Shown: positions 2,510 through 63,878 of the stretch, in pieces | Layout of the letters: every line of letters starts with the position of its first letter | Numbering within the stretch: position 1 is the first letter of the stretch | NCBI RefSeq assembly: GCF_900215215.1 | Contig: NZ_OBDR01000004.1 | Span: 62,001 to 126,000 of the forward strand | From: Methanohalophilus euhalobius | GTDB lineage: Archaea; Halobacteriota; Methanosarcinia; Methanosarcinales; Methanosarcinaceae | DNA length: 64,000 nt | Reading direction: 5' to 3' | Notes under the pieces: model-generated | Databases searched by the model: none | Seen by the model: the letters and a program-made list of their open reading frames with translations, nothing else | What the model was told of the DNA's origin: nothing | Translations under genes and position numbers: made by a program

Positions 2510-3052
2510 TTATTCTTCTTTGAGCAGATCGGATGCTTTCACAAGCGGATTCAATGTCACATTTTCATTCCACAAATTTGCTTCTGCTCCTTCTTCCCTG
2601 TCAACAACGGTAATCACTTCATCGACACTGGCACCGAAGTCCCTGAGAAGATTGATCGCTTCAAGAACAGATCCGCCACTTGTGGTAACGTCTTCTATCA
2701 GTATGACTTTATCTCCTTTTTCCAGATCACCTACAAATCTTCCCCTGGTTCCATAGGCCTTTGCATCCTTGCGTACGAGTAAAAGGGGAATCTCTGTTTT
2801 CAGGGAGACAGCCGTTGCAAGAGGAACTCCTCCAAGGGCCACTCCTCCAATACGGGTTGTTTTAGAAAGGTCAATCCTATCCGAGGCAACGTCAGAGATT
2901 TTTTTGAGGGTTACAGGATCTGAAATTGCCTTTTTTATATCAACGTAATATTTGCTGGTTTTTCCCGAGGCAAGGGTAAACTGGCCGAACTTGACGGCTT
3001 CACATTTCTTGAGAGCCTCTATGAGTTCATTTTTCTCATTGTTTTCCTGCAT
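2510..3052 (-). CDS. pyrE: Orotate phosphoribosyltransferase
   Basis: Converts orotate and PRPP to OMP in pyrimidine synthesis. The protein has 180 residues, typical of the archaeal stand-alone enzyme. The PRPP-binding loop EDVTTSGGS is at residues 120-128, and the flexible-loop region around RKDAKAYGTRG (94-104) is present. The start ATG lies 18 bases after the stop of the membrane gene to its right, so the two probably share a transcript. No OMP decarboxylase is fused or adjacent. Confidence 0.95.
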   Translation of the reverse strand: MQENNEKNELIEALKKCEAVKFGQFTLASGKTSKYYVDIKKAISDPVTLKKISDVASDRIDLSKTTRIGGVALGGVPLATAVSLKTEIPLLLVRKDAKAYGTRGRFVGDLEKGDKVILIEDVTTSGGSVLEAINLLRDFGASVDEVITVVDREEGAEANLWNENVTLNPLVKASDLLKEE

Positions 3053-3070
3053 GGCATAGATCTCCTGAGG

Positions 3071-3607
3071 TTACCAGGGTTCTTTCTTGATTCCAAGTAT
3101 GTAACCTATTATATTGGTACCTATGTGTAAAAGGGGTGTTAGTATCAGTAACACTATAATGATATTCAGGGTGAAATTTGCAACAAACCACTGTGGGGAT
3201 ACCAGGTAGGTCAATATCCACGCACCTGCTACAAAATCAAGCTGATCTGCAACCGGCAAAGGAGCTCCTCTTTTCAGGTTAATTCTTCTTTTAACAAAAC
3301 TCATTGCCATATCACCAAGAAGAGAACCAATCGAAAGAGCAGCAATAGTAATGAGTACATCCGGAATTGTAAACCCAAATGGTGGTAATCTAATCCCCAT
3401 AAATTCGATTTGGGTAAAGGCAATCCACGTTTGTAGGATCCCCGCAACGATTCCAATTAAACTTCCTGCGACAAATCCCCGTATTGTTTTTCCGTCACCA
3501 AGTATTCTTCTTCCGTCCACCATGGTCCTTTTGCCATCAATGGGTCTTCCTCCTCCTAAAAGAGCTGCAAAAGGACTCGGAAGGTAGGCAGGTACCATTA
3601 ACCACAC
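3071..3607 (-). CDS. carS: CDP-archaeol synthase
   Basis: Activates unsaturated archaetidic acid with CTP to give CDP-archaeol for ether-lipid synthesis; integral membrane protein. The sequence has the family signature near the N terminus (PAYLPSPFAALLGGGRPID, then RRILGDGKTIRG) and hydrophobic spans around residues 45-65, 78-95 and 145-170. The GTG at 3605-3607 gives 178 residues, but conserved-looking frame (KTLDTIILAVWLM) continues upstream to about 3640 with no ATG, GTG or TTG. The TATA box at 3669-3676 predicts transcription starting near 3646, so the true start may be a rare codon such as CTG at 3638-3640. Likely co-transcribed with pyrE. Confidence 0.9.
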   Translation of the reverse strand: MWLMVPAYLPSPFAALLGGGRPIDGKRTMVDGRRILGDGKTIRGFVAGSLIGIVAGILQTWIAFTQIEFMGIRLPPFGFTIPDVLITIAALSIGSLLGDMAMSFVKRRINLKRGAPLPVADQLDFVAGAWILTYLVSPQWFVANFTLNIIIVLLILTPLLHIGTNIIGYILGIKKEPW

Positions 3608-56965: not shown

Positions 56966-58498
56966 ATGGTCAGGGAATCAACGGGTGAGAATATCAATTT
57001 TGAGGAAAAGTTGTGGCAGACTGCAGATAAACTCCGGAATAATATGGATGCTGCGGAGTATAAGCATGTCGTGCTGGGTTTGATTTTCCTGAAGTATATT
57101 TCCGATGCTTTTGAGGAGAAGTACACTGAACTCAAAGAGGACGAATGGGCCGATCCCGAGGATCAGGATGAGTACCTGGCCGAGAATATTTTCTGGGTGC
57201 CGCCGGAAGCCCGCTGGGAGTACCTGCAGAACAATGCCAAGAGACCGATTATCGGCAGGCTTGTTGATGACGCGATGGCTGCGATTGAGAGGGATAATTC
57301 CACCCTGAAAGGTGTGCTGCCGAAGAATTATGCCCGGGAGGCCCTGGATAAGCAGCGACTCGGGGAGTTGATCGACCTGATCGGTACGATAGGATTGGGA
57401 GATCGGGAAAACCGCAGCAGGGATGTGCTGGGCAGGGTTTACGAGTATTTCCTGGGCAGGTTTGCGGATGCAGAGGGCAAGCGTGGCGGCCAGTTCTATA
57501 CCCCGCGCAGTATTGTGAGGGTGCTGACCGAGATGATCGAGCCTTACCACGGCAGGGTGTACGATCCGTGCTGTGGTTCGGGCGGGATGTTTGTGCAGAG
57601 CGAGAAGTTCATTGAGGCCCACGGTGGCAGGGTTGATGATATAGCGGTGTACGGGCAGGAATCCAACCAGACGACCTGGCGGTTGTGCAAGATGAACCTG
57701 GCCATCAGGGGCATAGATGGTAATATCCAGTGGGGTGATTCCTTCCATGATGACCGCCACAGGGACCTGAAGGCGGATTTTATCCTGTCCAATCCGCCGT
57801 TTAATGATTCAGACTGGAAGGGCGACCAGCTGGCCGATGACAGCAGGTGGCAGTTTGGCAGGCCGCCGAAGGGGAATGCGAATTTTGCCTGGGTGCAGCA
57901 CTACATCCACCACCTCTCCCCCACAGGCATTGCGGGTTTTGTGCTGGCCAACGGTTCTATGTCCTCAAATACCGCAGGCGAGGGAAAGATTCGCAAAAGT
58001 ATCGTGGAGGCGGACCTGGTGGATTGCATGATAGCCCTGCCGGGCCAGTTGTTCTATAATACGGGCATCCCGGCCTGCCTGTGGTTTGTGACCCGTGACA
58101 AGCAGAATAACAAGTTCCGGGACCGCCGGGGCGAGGTGCTGTTCATCGATGCCCGGGAGATGGGTTTCTTGCGGGACCGCACCCACCGGGAACTCACGGA
58201 TGAGGAGATTAAGCAAATCGCCGACACCTACCATGCCTGGCGCGGTGAGGATGTCGGATTTACGTATAAGGATGTCCCGGGCTTCTGCAAGTCCGCAAAC
58301 ATCGAGGAGATCGCAAAGCACGACCACATCCTGACCCCGGGCCGTTATGTGGGCTTTGCCGAGGAGGAAGAGGAGGATGAGCCCTTCGAGGAGAAGATGG
58401 AGCGGCTGACGACTCAATTGGCGGAGCAGTTCAGGGAGTCCCGGGAGTTGGAAGAGAGGATTAGGGAGAATTTGAAGGGGATTGGGTATGAGTTGTGA
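56966..58498 (+). CDS. hsdM: Type I restriction-modification methyltransferase subunit HsdM
   Basis: N6-adenine methyltransferase subunit of a type I R-M complex (M2S for methylation, with R for cleavage). The 510-residue protein has the helical N-terminal domain (about 10-150), the SAM motif [11 protein letters not shown] (200-209 region) and the catalytic NPPF at 276-279. GAGAGATC lies a few bases before the ATG. Codon use is strongly GC-rich, unlike the neighbours on either side, which suggests transfer. hsdR is not in the window; hsdS follows after one intervening gene. Confidence 0.95.
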
Positions 58499-58604
58499 AG
58501 AATTTGCTAATTATCAAAGCATATTTCTAAAATATTTTTTGTAATTAGGTTTGATACATTGGGGGGTTTAATTTATAGTAAAAAATTTAATTCAAGAATA
58601 TAAT

Positions 58605-59663
58605 TTGAATACTGATTTTGATAATTCAACATTGAATATTGAGATATATGCTGATGAAATAATTTTACCTACAGATTTTAATAGTGAAACTAAAAATATT
58701 ATTGGTATTGCGTGTTTATTTGTTCCATTATCTATAAAAGAAAAATTGTTTTCGGAATTAGTGAATAATCGATGTTTATTTGAAGAAAGTAATCAATGGT
58801 GTTGGAAGTATCAAGAATGCAGTTTTTCACAGATTAAAGGTGGTCAATGCAAAGAGGATTGGCATATACAAAATATGTGTGAGGTACATCACTCTGAATT
58901 AAGAAATAATAGTTCCCATTCTAAAAAATCCATTTCACGAAATTGGTTATATTATCTCATGTTTAATAACAAGAAAAACTTAAAACAAATATATTTCAAC
59001 ATACTATATGTCGATTTAAATAAATTACGTGTTAATTTGTTTGGTGACGAAAAAACACATGAAAATATATACAATAAATTTTTCAGAACAGTTTTGGATT
59101 ATGGAATTAAATCATATTTCCCAAATAAGAGAGTTGTGGTAAAAAATGTATTTCACGATGAAGGGCATATGGTAAATCACCATTATTTTCCACATTTCAA
59201 TTTAAAAAAATTGAATGTCAGTTTAGAAGATAATACATCCATCGAAAACACATCAATTCAATTCATTGATTCGGATCATCGAAAATATTTGAAAAATGAG
59301 TATGAATCAGTGAAAGCAAGCCATTTTGTACAATTGATCGATTTAATTTTGGGAGCTATAAGTCAAAATATTTTTTATCTTTCCAATGATTCATTTAAAA
59401 AAGAAATAGCTATGATCATTAGACCTTTAGTAGAAAGATTGTTAAAGAATCCGTATAATATAAACAGTTCTTATAATTATTGCAAATGTCAGCATATTAG
59501 TTTTTTCCCAGAACATTCAATAGATGAAGCTGAAAATATTCTCACTAATTTGAGTTACAAAGAAATACGATCTATTAACAGGAACAATTTCTATTCTAAT
59601 AGAAAAATAGAGATGCCTCCGTATAATCCGCATCAAAAAACATTGGATATGTGGTCTAAATGA
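58605..59663 (+). CDS. DUF3800-like protein between hsdM and hsdS
   Basis: A 352-residue, AT-rich gene. The N-terminal IEIYADEI (Asp17, Glu18) and a later SHFVQLIDLILGAI (Q243, D246) recall the acidic pattern of DUF3800, a predicted RNase H-fold family often found in defence loci; a central KNVFHDEGHM and QFIDSDHRK may add further acidic residues. The start is uncertain: the TTG gives this length, but a GGGGGG run at 58561-58566 lies eight bases before an in-frame ATA at 58575, suggesting a possibly longer protein. Its stop overlaps the hsdS start (ATGA), so it is coupled to hsdS. Function unknown; family call is tentative. Confidence 0.6.
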   Translation: MNTDFDNSTLNIEIYADEIILPTDFNSETKNIIGIACLFVPLSIKEKLFSELVNNRCLFEESNQWCWKYQECSFSQIKGGQCKEDWHIQNMCEVHHSELRNNSSHSKKSISRNWLYYLMFNNKKNLKQIYFNILYVDLNKLRVNLFGDEKTHENIYNKFFRTVLDYGIKSYFPNKRVVVKNVFHDEGHMVNHHYFPHFNLKKLNVSLEDNTSIENTSIQFIDSDHRKYLKNEYESVKASHFVQLIDLILGAISQNIFYLSNDSFKKEIAMIIRPLVERLLKNPYNINSSYNYCKCQHISFFPEHSIDEAENILTNLSYKEIRSINRNNFYSNRKIEMPPYNPHQKTLDMWSK

Positions 59664-60847
59664 AATATATGTCAAGACATGATTTTCAATCAATTATTCC
59701 AGAAGGTTTCCATGAAATAAATTTGGGAGATTTAATTACATTTCAAAGAGGCCATGATTTGCCCAAAAAGAAAAGAAAAAAGGGCAGTTATCCAGTTGTT
59801 GCTTCAAACGGTATAGTTGGATTTCATAATGAATTTAAAGTAAAGGGTCCTGGTGTTATTGTTGGTAGAAGTGGTAACATAGGTGAGCCTTATTATATAA
59901 ACAAAAACTATTGGCCTTTGAATACTACTCTATATGTAAAAGAGTTCAAAAGTACAAGTCCTGAGTTTGTGTATTATTTCTTAAAATCCATAAATTTAGG
60001 TCGTTACAACTCGGGAAGTGCAGTACCAAGTTTAAATAGAAACTACATTCATCCACTAAAAATCAAAGTTCCCAAATCAATTACATATCAAAACAAAATT
60101 GCTTCACTACTCTCCACCCTCGACGACAAGATCGAACTCAACCGCCGGATGAATGCCACCCTCGAGCAGATCGCACAGGCCATCTTCAAGCAGTGGTTCA
60201 TCGATTTCGAGTTTCCGGACGAGAACGGGCAGCCCTACAAATCCAGCGGCGGTGAGATGGTGGAGTCGGAGATGGGGGAGATTCCGCGAGGGTGGCGTGT
60301 CGGGAAACTGAAAGATATTTGTGAAATAAATATGGGTCAATCCCCTCCAGGTAAAACCTATAATGAAAATGGAGAAGGCACACCTTTCTATCAGGGGATT
60401 ACTGATTTTGGTTTCCGCTTCCCTACAAGAAGGATATATTGTACAGAACCAAAGAAGTTTGCAGAAAAGAATGATGTGCTTCTAAGTGTACGTGCACCTG
60501 TGGGAAGTTTAAATATTTCAAATGAAAGATGTGCAATTGGAAGAGGTTTGGCAGCACTGAGATTGAAGGAAAATCATGGTAGTTTTCTCTATTATCTGCT
60601 TCTATCAACAAAACATAGATGGAGCATTTTTGAATCAGGTGGAACGGTTTTCAGTTCAATAAACAAATCAAATATTAGTGAGTTTGAATTGGTGATTCCT
60701 CCAGATGATTTAATTTCAAAATTTAATAACCTCATATTATCGAAAGATGAACAAATTTTTTATAGTACTGTTCAAAATAATTCTTTATCGCAAATCCGTG
60801 ATTTTCTTCTCCCCAAACTAATATCTGGAAAAATTAGGCAGGTGTAA
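59660..60847 (+). CDS. hsdS: Type I restriction-modification specificity subunit HsdS
   Basis: DNA-recognition subunit that positions HsdM. The 395-residue protein has two target-recognition domains (about 15-145 and 215-360) separated by a conserved helical spacer with LLSTLDDKIELNRRMNATLE and IFKQWFIDFEFPDENGQPY (about 148-200), and a C-terminal helix (LSQIRDFLLPKLISGKIRQV). The spacer DNA (about 60108-60305) is GC-rich while both recognition domains are AT-rich, a sign of domain exchange. It overlaps the DUF3800-like gene and precedes the OLD-type gene by 2 bases. Confidence 0.93.
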   Translation: MKYMSRHDFQSIIPEGFHEINLGDLITFQRGHDLPKKKRKKGSYPVVASNGIVGFHNEFKVKGPGVIVGRSGNIGEPYYINKNYWPLNTTLYVKEFKSTSPEFVYYFLKSINLGRYNSGSAVPSLNRNYIHPLKIKVPKSITYQNKIASLLSTLDDKIELNRRMNATLEQIAQAIFKQWFIDFEFPDENGQPYKSSGGEMVESEMGEIPRGWRVGKLKDICEINMGQSPPGKTYNENGEGTPFYQGITDFGFRFPTRRIYCTEPKKFAEKNDVLLSVRAPVGSLNISNERCAIGRGLAALRLKENHGSFLYYLLLSTKHRWSIFESGGTVFSSINKSNISEFELVIPPDDLISKFNNLILSKDEQIFYSTVQNNSLSQIRDFLLPKLISGKIRQV

Positions 60848-60849
60848 TA

Positions 60850-62487
60850 TTGCAAATAACTGAAATATATGTCAAAAATTTTAAAAGTATAAAGGAATTG
60901 ACTTTTTGCCCGACCAAATATTTGAATGCATTTATAGGTTCTAATAACTCAGGAAAAACTAATCTTTTTTCTGCAATTAATTTTGTTCTTGGAGAACGGT
61001 ACCCGACTTTTAATTCAATTTCAAAAGATGATTACTATAAAGGGAATGATGACGATGATATGTGCATAAAGATATCTTTTGATGACGGTAACTATTTAGA
61101 ATTTACAAGTGAGTGGGAAACCCCTTATCGGCAGATTAAAAGTGGGTTGAATATGTCTGGTAATTATTGTAACAATGAAAATAGACAAAAATATTGTTCT
61201 GCTTATGTTGGAGTTAGAAGAGAGATTAATGATTATATGCCTTCTAATAAATGGACTCTCATGGGTAGATTTTTACAAGAAGTAAATGCTCAGTTTTTAG
61301 AAGAACGCCTCCCTCACGAAGACAAAATGAAAAGTGATGAGCTTAAAGAGCAATTAAACAAAATAAGAGATGAACTACTATTTTCGGTCGAAGATCGATC
61401 TGGAAAAAATGTTATGGAAACTTTTTTGTCAATTATTAAAGAAGAAACATCAAAACAGATAAGTGGCTCAGATTGTGATTTTGATATACATATGAACATG
61501 TACGACCCATGGAACTATTACAGATCATTGCAGTTTGTTGCCAGTGATCATACAATGGGTTTGGATTTAAAAGCATCACAACTTGGTATGGGGTTACAGG
61601 CATCTTTAACGATAGCGATATTGAAGGCTTATGCTCAATTGAAATTAAGAAATCAACCACCGATATTTATTGATGAGCCAGAATTATTCCTCCATCCCCA
61701 TGCAGAAAGAAACTTTTATTCTGTATTACGTGAATTAGCTGAAAACGGCACTCAAGTATTTTATACAACTCATTCTCCTAGTTTTTTATCTGTAAAACAC
61801 TTTGATGAGATATTTGTAGTTCGGAAACGAAATGCAGAAACATATTTGAAATTTGCAAATATTAATAATTTTGTTCAAGATCTTTCTAATCGAAAAGGAA
61901 TTACTTCTTCAGAAGAAGATTTAAAACTTCACTATGCCAATGCATATGAAAATACTGGGAATTCAAAAGAAGCAAATGAGGCCTTTTTTGCAAATAAAAT
62001 TATTCTGGTGGAAGGGCAGTCTGAAAGTTTACTCTTACCCTACTTTTTTGAGAAAAAAGGGTATGAGTATCTAAAAGAAGGAATTTCAATCGTTTGCTGT
62101 GGATCAAAAGGCGAACTTGATCGCTTTTACAGATTGTATTCTGAGTTTGGAATCCCTTGCTATATCATTTTTGATGGGGATAAACAACTAGAAGGAACTG
62201 ATGAAGAAAGGGCGAATATTGGAAAAAATAAAGACTTAATTTCATTACTAGATTCAGGGGGCATTCCTAACTATCCCGATAATACTCCACATGATAAATA
62301 TTTGGGATTTGAAAAGACTTTAGAATACAATTTGGGATTTGATACTTCCAAAAAAGGATTAGATTTATTTTTGCAGTTTAAGAAAAAATATGAATCAAAA
62401 GAAGTACAAATCCCTTCATGGGTAGATTCATTAATAGATCAAGTCTCTAAGCTTGATGGTGAAAGTGAATCGATATTACAACTTTAA
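60850..62487 (+). CDS. OLD-family ATPase/TOPRIM nuclease
   Basis: A 545-residue protein of the overcoming-lysogenisation-defect type, expected to be an ATP-controlled nuclease acting in defence. The N-terminal ABC/SMC-like ATPase has Walker A GSNNSGKT (30-37), signature-like SQLGMGLQASL (about 243-253) and Walker B FIDEPELFLHP (about 273-283). The C-terminal TOPRIM domain has ILVEGQSES with E388 and IIFDGD with D442 and D444. The start is a TTG two bases after hsdS stop, so it is within the R-M operon. No UvrD-type helicase partner is adjacent, which argues against Gabija. Confidence 0.85.
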   Translation: MQITEIYVKNFKSIKELTFCPTKYLNAFIGSNNSGKTNLFSAINFVLGERYPTFNSISKDDYYKGNDDDDMCIKISFDDGNYLEFTSEWETPYRQIKSGLNMSGNYCNNENRQKYCSAYVGVRREINDYMPSNKWTLMGRFLQEVNAQFLEERLPHEDKMKSDELKEQLNKIRDELLFSVEDRSGKNVMETFLSIIKEETSKQISGSDCDFDIHMNMYDPWNYYRSLQFVASDHTMGLDLKASQLGMGLQASLTIAILKAYAQLKLRNQPPIFIDEPELFLHPHAERNFYSVLRELAENGTQVFYTTHSPSFLSVKHFDEIFVVRKRNAETYLKFANINNFVQDLSNRKGITSSEEDLKLHYANAYENTGNSKEANEAFFANKIILVEGQSESLLLPYFFEKKGYEYLKEGISIVCCGSKGELDRFYRLYSEFGIPCYIIFDGDKQLEGTDEERANIGKNKDLISLLDSGGIPNYPDNTPHDKYLGFEKTLEYNLGFDTSKKGLDLFLQFKKKYESKEVQIPSWVDSLIDQVSKLDGESESILQL

Positions 62488-62496
62488 TCTCCAAAA

Positions 62497-62579
62497 ACTA
62501 CCAATTCCTACCAAATTGGTAGTAATCTATTTATTCCAATAAATACCAGAAACTACCAGAAACTAACGGATTGGTAGTT
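62497..62579. promoter_or_regulatory. Repeat-rich upstream region of the Fic gene (candidate operator)
   Basis: A perfect 10-bp inverted repeat, ACTACCAATT (62497-62506) with AATTGGTAGT (62514-62523), is followed by a second, AACTACCA (62551-62558) with TGGTAGTT (62572-62579), the latter ending at the Fic ATG. Additional TACCA half-sites lie between them, around 62509-62513 and 62543-62548. This looks like a protein-binding operator array rather than a terminator. The C-terminal DNA-binding part of the Fic protein is a candidate ligand. Confidence 0.5.
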
Positions 62580-63878
62580 ATGAAGGTTCCGCAGAAGGCC
62601 CCGAATATGTGGGCGGTGATTGAGAAGTATCCTGATGCGTATTCGCTGTTTGTTGATCCCGGGATACAGGAGATTGTTGCAAAATATAACCGGGATTACC
62701 TGCACTGGGAGGAGCTGCGCCGCAGGAAACTGCCGGTGGAGGCGGAAAAACTCTGGGCTGTGATCAAAAGCAGCAGGTCTATGCAGGCACGACACATCGA
62801 ATTCGGGGAATGGGACTTCCAGTACGTGCAATCCAATGAAACCCTGCGCAGGCTGCACCTGCTGGACACCCGGGGAGCCGGTAATCTGGAAGGTCGGCCG
62901 GGCGGGGTCAGTGCTGCGGATCGCAGGCGGTATATCGTCAACTCCCTCATGGAAGAGGCCATCGCCTCCAGCCAGCTGGAGGGTGCGGCCACCACCCGGG
63001 AAGCCGCCAAGCAGATGCTGCGGCAAAAACGCCGGCCCCGGGATTACTCCGAGAAGATGATCGTCAACGGCTATCGCACCATCCGCAGGATCGCCGACAT
63101 GAAAAGCAGGACCATTGACGTGGACACCCTGCTTGAAATTCACAGGGAGATTACCCGGGATACCATGGAAAACCCGGCGGATGAGGGGAAATTCCGGGAC
63201 AACAACGACATAGTGGTAGCCAATCCGCAGGACAGTAGTAAAATCTACCACACCCCGCCGGACTACCGGGAAATCCCGGCACACATGCAGGAATTCTGTG
63301 AATTTGCCAGCAGCGATGAAGACGAATTCATCCATCCCCTAATCAAAGGGATCATGCTGCACTTCCTCATCGGCTACATCCATCCCTTCATCGACGGCAA
63401 CGGAAGGTGTGCGCGTTCCATCTTCTACTGGTACATGCTCAGCCGGGGCTACTGGCTCTTTGAATACATGCCCATCTCCCGGATATTGCTTCACTCCAAA
63501 ACGAAATACGCCCGCGCCTACCTTTACACCGAAACCGATGACAATGACCTGACCTATTTCATAAACTACAACCTCTCGGCAATCGAAAGAGCCCTGGAAG
63601 ACCTCGAGGAGTATATCGTTCGCAAAAAGGAGGAGCAGGCCACAGCCATGCAGCTGATTGAAACCGCTGAAAACTTAAATCTCCGGCAGGCCGACATCCT
63701 CAAAACCCTGCTTGAAGAATCCGACAGGCTGTTCTCCATCGCCGAAATAATGGGTAAATACAATGTTGCCTACGACACCGCAAGACGTGATATGCAATAT
63801 CTCTCGGAACTGGGGTATATTGAGCAAATAAAGGTACGCAACAAATTGATGTACAGATATTCAGGTGTAACAGGGTGA
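62580..63878 (+). CDS. Fic/DOC family protein with winged-helix C terminus
   Basis: A 432-residue protein. The catalytic Fic motif HPFIDGNGR is at 268-276, the core used by AMP-transferring Fic enzymes. An inhibitory-helix motif S-S-Q-L-E-G (about 130-135, fitting [S/T]xxxE[G/N]) lies before it, suggesting the self-inhibited class. The C-terminal part (about 355-430) with ILKTLLEESDRLFSIAEIMG and ARRDMQYLSELGYI looks like a winged helix that could bind the upstream repeats. Codon use is GC-rich like hsdM. The ATG at 62580 is chosen; TTG at 62571 is possible. Often found with type I R-M genes. Confidence 0.9.
   Translation: MKVPQKAPNMWAVIEKYPDAYSLFVDPGIQEIVAKYNRDYLHWEELRRRKLPVEAEKLWAVIKSSRSMQARHIEFGEWDFQYVQSNETLRRLHLLDTRGAGNLEGRPGGVSAADRRRYIVNSLMEEAIASSQLEGAATTREAAKQMLRQKRRPRDYSEKMIVNGYRTIRRIADMKSRTIDVDTLLEIHREITRDTMENPADEGKFRDNNDIVVANPQDSSKIYHTPPDYREIPAHMQEFCEFASSDEDEFIHPLIKGIMLHFLIGYIHPFIDGNGRCARSIFYWYMLSRGYWLFEYMPISRILLHSKTKYARAYLYTETDDNDLTYFINYNLSAIERALEDLEEYIVRKKEEQATAMQLIETAENLNLRQADILKTLLEESDRLFSIAEIMGKYNVAYDTARRDMQYLSELGYIEQIKVRNKLMYRYSGVTG

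Follow-up and report, generated by a model that had tools for sequence, protein, structure and literature searches.

The window, the whole 64,000-nucleotide stretch of Methanohalophilus euhalobius DNA analysed here, carries a type I restriction-modification (RM) operon with additional cargo genes (Table 1). Genes follow one another in the order hsdM, a DUF3800-like gene, hsdS, an OLD-like ATPase gene, the Fic gene and hsdR. The last lies complete beyond the window, 3' of Fic (L014:8313-11465), and hsdM, hsdS and hsdR are found in one operon. The 352-residue open reading frame of the DUF3800-like gene (58605-59663, forward strand) belongs to a frame that is open from 58572 to 59663. This reading frame is real: it has 363 open codons, whereas 1000 Markov-shuffled versions of the stretch gave at most 139. 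An earlier note had described the gene as far more AT-rich than hsdM, and the compositions agree: GC is 0.268 and GC3 0.227, compared with 0.553 and 0.714 in hsdM. Also AT-rich relative to hsdM are hsdS (GC 0.37) and the OLD-like gene (0.32), and Fic stands at 0.53.

Table 1. Features of the operon and of the DUF3800-like gene, in window coordinates.
Feature	Position	Strand	Basis or remark
hsdM, type I methyltransferase subunit	56966..58498	+	PF02384 (E 9e-113), PF12161
18-codon stub overlapping hsdM stop, in frame of DUF3800-like gene	58488..58544	+	by eye
Variable interval; other genes there in two other Methanohalophilus, flanks align	58491..62494	+	genome comparison
GGGGGG SD-like run and in-frame ATA 58575, unlikely start	58561..58577	+	SD pairing, homologue starts
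TTG start from ORF caller, without SD	58605..58607	+	ORF list, SD pairing
DUF3800-superfamily gene, predicted RNase-H-fold nuclease with Cys3His insert	58605..59663	+	352 aa from TTG 58605, 343 aa from TTG 58632
TTG start favoured by homology (M-N-I-E-I-Y-A-D-E)	58632..58634	+	aligned with ATG of L015, L112, L114, L115 and TTG of L039
D17-E18, YxDE motif, predicted catalytic pair	58653..58658	+	invariant, 34/34
C57, C72, C82, H87, predicted zinc-binding quartet	58773..58865	+	in 32/34 homologues
H95	58887..58889	+	invariant, 34/34
H184-D185, third predicted acidic residue	59154..59159	+	D in 31/34
Q243-LI-D246-LIL-G250, fourth predicted acidic residue	59331..59354	+	D246 and Q243 in 34/34
hsdS, specificity subunit; start overlaps DUF3800-like gene stop by 4 nt	59660..60847	+	PF01420 (E 2.6e-40)
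OLD-like AAA ATPase with TOPRIM, second cargo gene, TTG start	60850..62487	+	PF20469, PADLOC Old (E 6.7e-51)
Fic protein, conserved right flank of variable slot	62571..63878	+	PF02661

Comparison with related genomes reveals a variable slot between hsdM and Fic. Each of the four Methanohalophilus compared fills it differently, while the two flanking genes are 96-98% identical among the three closest. In G112 and G110, where hsdM is 98 and 97% and Fic 97 and 96% identical, everything between the two genes differs. The DNA sequences align up to GGATTGGGTATG (58479-58490, close to the hsdM stop) and again from CCAAAAACTACC, just 3' of the OLD gene. hsdR is kept in G110 (97% identical) and was not detected in the G112 stretch compared. 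Cargo in these two genomes includes a PIN_12 protein, a metallo-beta-lactamase-like protein (PDC-M48B) and a DUF3644 protein (PDC-S19). In the fourth, more distant species (G113, hsdM 87% identical) the slot is occupied by a Schlafen/AlbA_2 protein together with a DUF3800 homologue that starts with an HsdS-like N-terminal leader, EAEIGLIPEDWGLK (the fusion is seen at L016:9299-9382). Specificity subunit and cargo are exchanged between species as a block.

Two smaller elements lie at the borders of the slot. The stub at the hsdM stop resembles, by eye, the N-terminus of hsdS (MSCEWEEV in L102), and G110 carries a similar one, MSCDWQEWNLKE; these stubs look like remnants of an hsdS start, as if cargo had entered hsdS at its 5' end. 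Just upstream of Fic, at 62497-62570, the inverted repeat ACTACCAATT...AATTGGTAGT is kept in G112 and G110 and is a possible operator.

What the DUF3800-like gene encodes was approached through structure prediction. An AlphaFold model built from ten sequences reached a pLDDT of 65, and one built from 34 sequences a pLDDT of 89.9 and a pTM of 0.90. In a Foldseek search of the latter against the PDB, ranks 1-10 are all RNase HII/H2, with probabilities mostly of 0.9-1.0, E-values of 2e-3 to 0.2 and modest TM-scores (0.3-0.5). The best viral match of the first model is a DUF3800 phage protein (A0A8S5M5R1, E 3.3e-4, probability 1.00). Sequence searches of the PDB gave no matches. An RNase H fold is well supported by modelling. 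Within it, D17, E18, D185 and D246 are compatible with an RNase HII-like D-E-D-D site, given a presumed residue-to-residue correspondence, and all predicted catalytic residues are in place in the window protein. The Cys-Cys-Cys-His quartet is present as a set in 32 of the 34 members and missing as a whole set in the other two (L134 and L135), as expected of a metal site; the inserted Cys3His knuckle probably binds zinc. Close homologue pairs have dN/dS values of 0.06-0.25, and purifying selection acts in the family.

Searched alone, the window protein has no significant match in Pfam, NCBIfam or PADLOC. Against DUF3800 (PF12686) it scores 9.8 bits, below the gathering cut-off of 21 bits, so the match is as weak as the earlier note had described it. 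Its homologues are more informative: PF12686 is matched by 18 of the 34 (best E 1.1e-5), and homologues in five genomes (G160, G125, G159, G137 and G172), 31-35% identical, pass the cut-off with 21.2-24.3 bits. No other family recurs among them. Together with the RNase HII/H2 fold matches, these profile searches uphold the original guess of a DUF3800, RNase H-like protein. It is well supported that the protein represents a divergent branch of the DUF3800 superfamily and not a Pfam-defined member. PADLOC PDC-M04A is weakly matched, with partial coverage, by 15 of the 34 homologues (best E 7.6e-8), unlike the window protein, which has no match to it. Low-scoring Pfam matches to DnaGprimase_HBD and Replitron_HUH, each in one member only, were rejected. 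Relatives were first found in Methanosarcinaceae and other Euryarchaeota, and an alignment query of genome contigs yielded 33 loci. The wider set spans Thermoplasmata, Nanohaloarchaea, Micrarchaeota, Methanobacteria and Lokiarchaeota as well as Bacillota, Nitrospirota, Lentisphaerota, WOR-3 and WWE3; none was found in plasmids or phages (both by tblastn) or in viral contigs.

The beginning of the gene is peculiar. As noted earlier, there is no ATG near the 5' end: the first in-frame methionine of the 58605 frame is residue 91, and the first 90 codons are free of ATG. A run of six G (58561-58566) does lie eight nucleotides upstream of the in-frame ATA at 58575, which would add ten residues. Paired with an archaeal 16S tail, the 20 nucleotides upstream of this ATA reach -10.2 kcal/mol. 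About 1% of window positions attain this value, making the G-run a real SD-like outlier. TTG 58605 indeed lacks a site, its pairing amounting to -0.1 kcal/mol.

The homologues lead elsewhere, to a further in-frame TTG at 58632 that the earlier note had missed and that is also without an SD. Translation of the closest relatives starts 5-8 residues ahead of the YxDE tyrosine: at -5 with ATG or TTG (Table 1), at -7 with ATG (L111) and at -8 with GTG (L110) or ATG (L109, L113). Initiation at TTG 58632, position -5, gives MNIEIYADE, to be compared with MEIEVYADE (L015) and MEIEIYSDE (L112). In six homologues (L015, L110-L113 and L115) an in-frame stop only 7-13 codons before that tyrosine excludes a longer N-terminus. 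L016 and L030 do have longer N-termini, so extra length is tolerated; residues 1-4 of the 34-sequence model are disordered. With close homologues beginning at the position of TTG 58632, six of them without room upstream, the ATA start was not sustained. Alignment of the starts makes TTG 58632 the probable site of initiation; TTG 58605 is an unlikely one, and ATA 58575 slightly less likely again. A TTG 58632 start does not account for the SD-like G-run. The leader shows no unusual folding (z -0.9), sigma-70-like sites are no commoner than in shuffles, and TATA-like octamers, in excess across the whole window, are absent from the leader. Since no start is clear and neither TTG has an SD, expression of the gene is a prediction.

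The relatives of this branch recur beside DNA methyltransferases. An RM reference BLAST match lies within 1.5 kb at 12 of 37 subfamily loci, compared with 1 of 30 ordinary DUF3800 loci drawn from the window's class only (Fisher p = 0.004; loci not fully independent, some ending at contig ends). The BLAST part of the automatic count was used alone because the count missed diverged methyltransferases and included false cytosine-methylase matches. By inspection with Pfam, 17 of the 34 aligned members are RM-linked, and this label changes at least nine times on the tree. Type I genes adjoin the homologue in L039, L108, L109, L113, L116, L117, L122, L133 and L137, Eco57I-type or PglX-like methyltransferases in L015, L112, L120, L121, L129 and L135, and cytosine methylase genes in L139. 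The gene recurs at one spot, immediately 3' of a DNA methyltransferase or flanked by hsdM and hsdS, and often only a few bases separate it from its neighbour or the two overlap. Loci of this kind are seen in Methanohalophilus, Thermoplasmata, Nanohaloarchaea, Nitrospirota and WWE3.

Several individual loci deserve mention. In G328 (L037/L039) the homologue 3' of hsdM is split over two frames by a frameshift or assembly error, and L129:2-2935 encodes an Eco57I-type methyltransferase with a C-terminal Fic domain two genes upstream of a DUF3800 homologue. Scans with Rfam found no RNA of any family in or near the gene; DUF3800 RNAs in particular are absent from the window and from the immediate neighbourhood of the homologues at the loci scanned. 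DUF3800-X RNAs occur in Nanohaloarchaeal RM operons at L133:3271-3340 (67.8 bits) and L116:3313-3382 (54.8 bits), in both cases 2.6 kb from a Cys3His-branch homologue. The former is directly 3' of an ordinary DUF3800 gene (2566-3273), and no such gene was seen beside the latter.

We lean towards reading the protein as an RM-coupled accessory nuclease with an RNase H fold, from the Cys3His branch of DUF3800 and likely started at TTG 58632, that would serve as a PrrC-like second-line antiviral effector. Carried as cargo between hsdM and hsdS, it would most probably act as a metal-dependent nuclease through its predicted RNase HII-like D-E...D...D site, RNA or RNA-DNA hybrids being slightly favoured over DNA as putative substrate. 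By analogy with PrrC in EcoprrI, the co-expressed methyltransferase complex would keep the predicted nuclease harmless and release it once restriction is evaded or inhibited, adding a second line of antiviral defence. Its place in the variable slot and the recurrence of its relatives beside DNA methyltransferases make the gene product a good candidate antiviral nuclease.

A looser association is possible, if considerably less probable: the nuclease might work alone, as a passenger without functional tie to the restriction enzyme, in a slot that collects defence genes. Each of the four Methanohalophilus has different cargo there, and RM genes are lacking beside half of the relatives, such as the Methanosarcina copies adjoining the fpo region. 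Moreover, RM linkage barely clusters on the tree (35 of 500 shuffles are equally low), so it may reflect repeated capture by defence islands and not a fixed partnership. Recurrence at one spot across five lineages speaks against a mere passenger. Closer involvement, as a DNA-cutting or DNA-processing subunit that aids or replaces HsdR, we consider improbable. It would suit L039, where hsdM lacks an hsdR within the stretch examined, and the linkage to single-chain Eco57I-type or PglX-like methyltransferases, but the operon already has a complete hsdR downstream, and the best fold match is RNase HII and not a restriction endonuclease. Still less credible is a dying gene, untranslated after damage to its start codon or leader. 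The strong SD-like site, which no standard start codon follows, and the two SD-less TTGs would fit such decay; against it stand the full frame with all motif residues and the TTG or GTG starts common in the family (L039, L110, L019, L034) and used by the neighbouring OLD gene.

Extending the RM-coupled effector beyond this operon is more speculative. The zinc-knuckle branch could conceivably form a new kind of restriction-linked nuclease across archaea and bacteria, RNase HII-like and with methyltransferases of the type I, Eco57I-type and PglX-like kinds as its partners, which would sense loss of the methyltransferase/restriction complex and stop infection, a PrrC-like role with an unrelated fold. 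DUF3800 is widespread and stands in the literature cited here without a biochemical role, its reported ties being to non-coding RNAs and a small number of CRISPR types. With its metal-binding insert and its repeated occurrence next to DNA methyltransferases, the present branch offers a testable partner and trigger, here within the little-explored antiviral arsenal of methanogens, in a salt-loving methane-producing archaeon.

Compared with ordinary DUF3800 proteins, for which an RNase H fold has been described (PMC10910872, PMC12669027), the branch shares the N-terminal YxDE, the acidic motif, H-D and Q-x-x-D-x-x-x-G in the same order, the correspondence being drawn by eye; hhalign of 13 branch against 19 ordinary sequences aligned only the QxxD motif (probability 5%, E 0.008). 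It differs in length, about 350 versus about 210 residues, with an extra C-terminal part, and in the Cys3His insert, which 18 of the 19 ordinary proteins lack; the regex matched the remaining one through another arrangement that looks like chance. DUF3800 proteins have also been described as RNase-H-fold accessory proteins in CRISPR V-A2 and VI-F (PMC12669027, PMC10910872). They are similarly tied to a defence system, but to Cas12a2/Cas13-type effectors (with TPR domains in the Cas12a2 case), whereas the branch described here accompanies RM/BREX-type methyltransferases. RNase HII/H2 enzymes provide the best solved-structure matches and share the adjacent D-E in the first strand and two more acids; they show no detectable sequence similarity and lack the extra insert and C-terminal region. 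Finally, PrrC is an anticodon nuclease encoded within EcoprrI that stays latent while in its complex (PMC3874165, PMC12707154). Its fold is unrelated, no PrrC-type family is among the Pfam or PADLOC matches, and our gene sits between hsdM and hsdS. The likeness is one of genomic position only: in both cases the gene of a nuclease, a putative one here, lies inside a type I RM operon.
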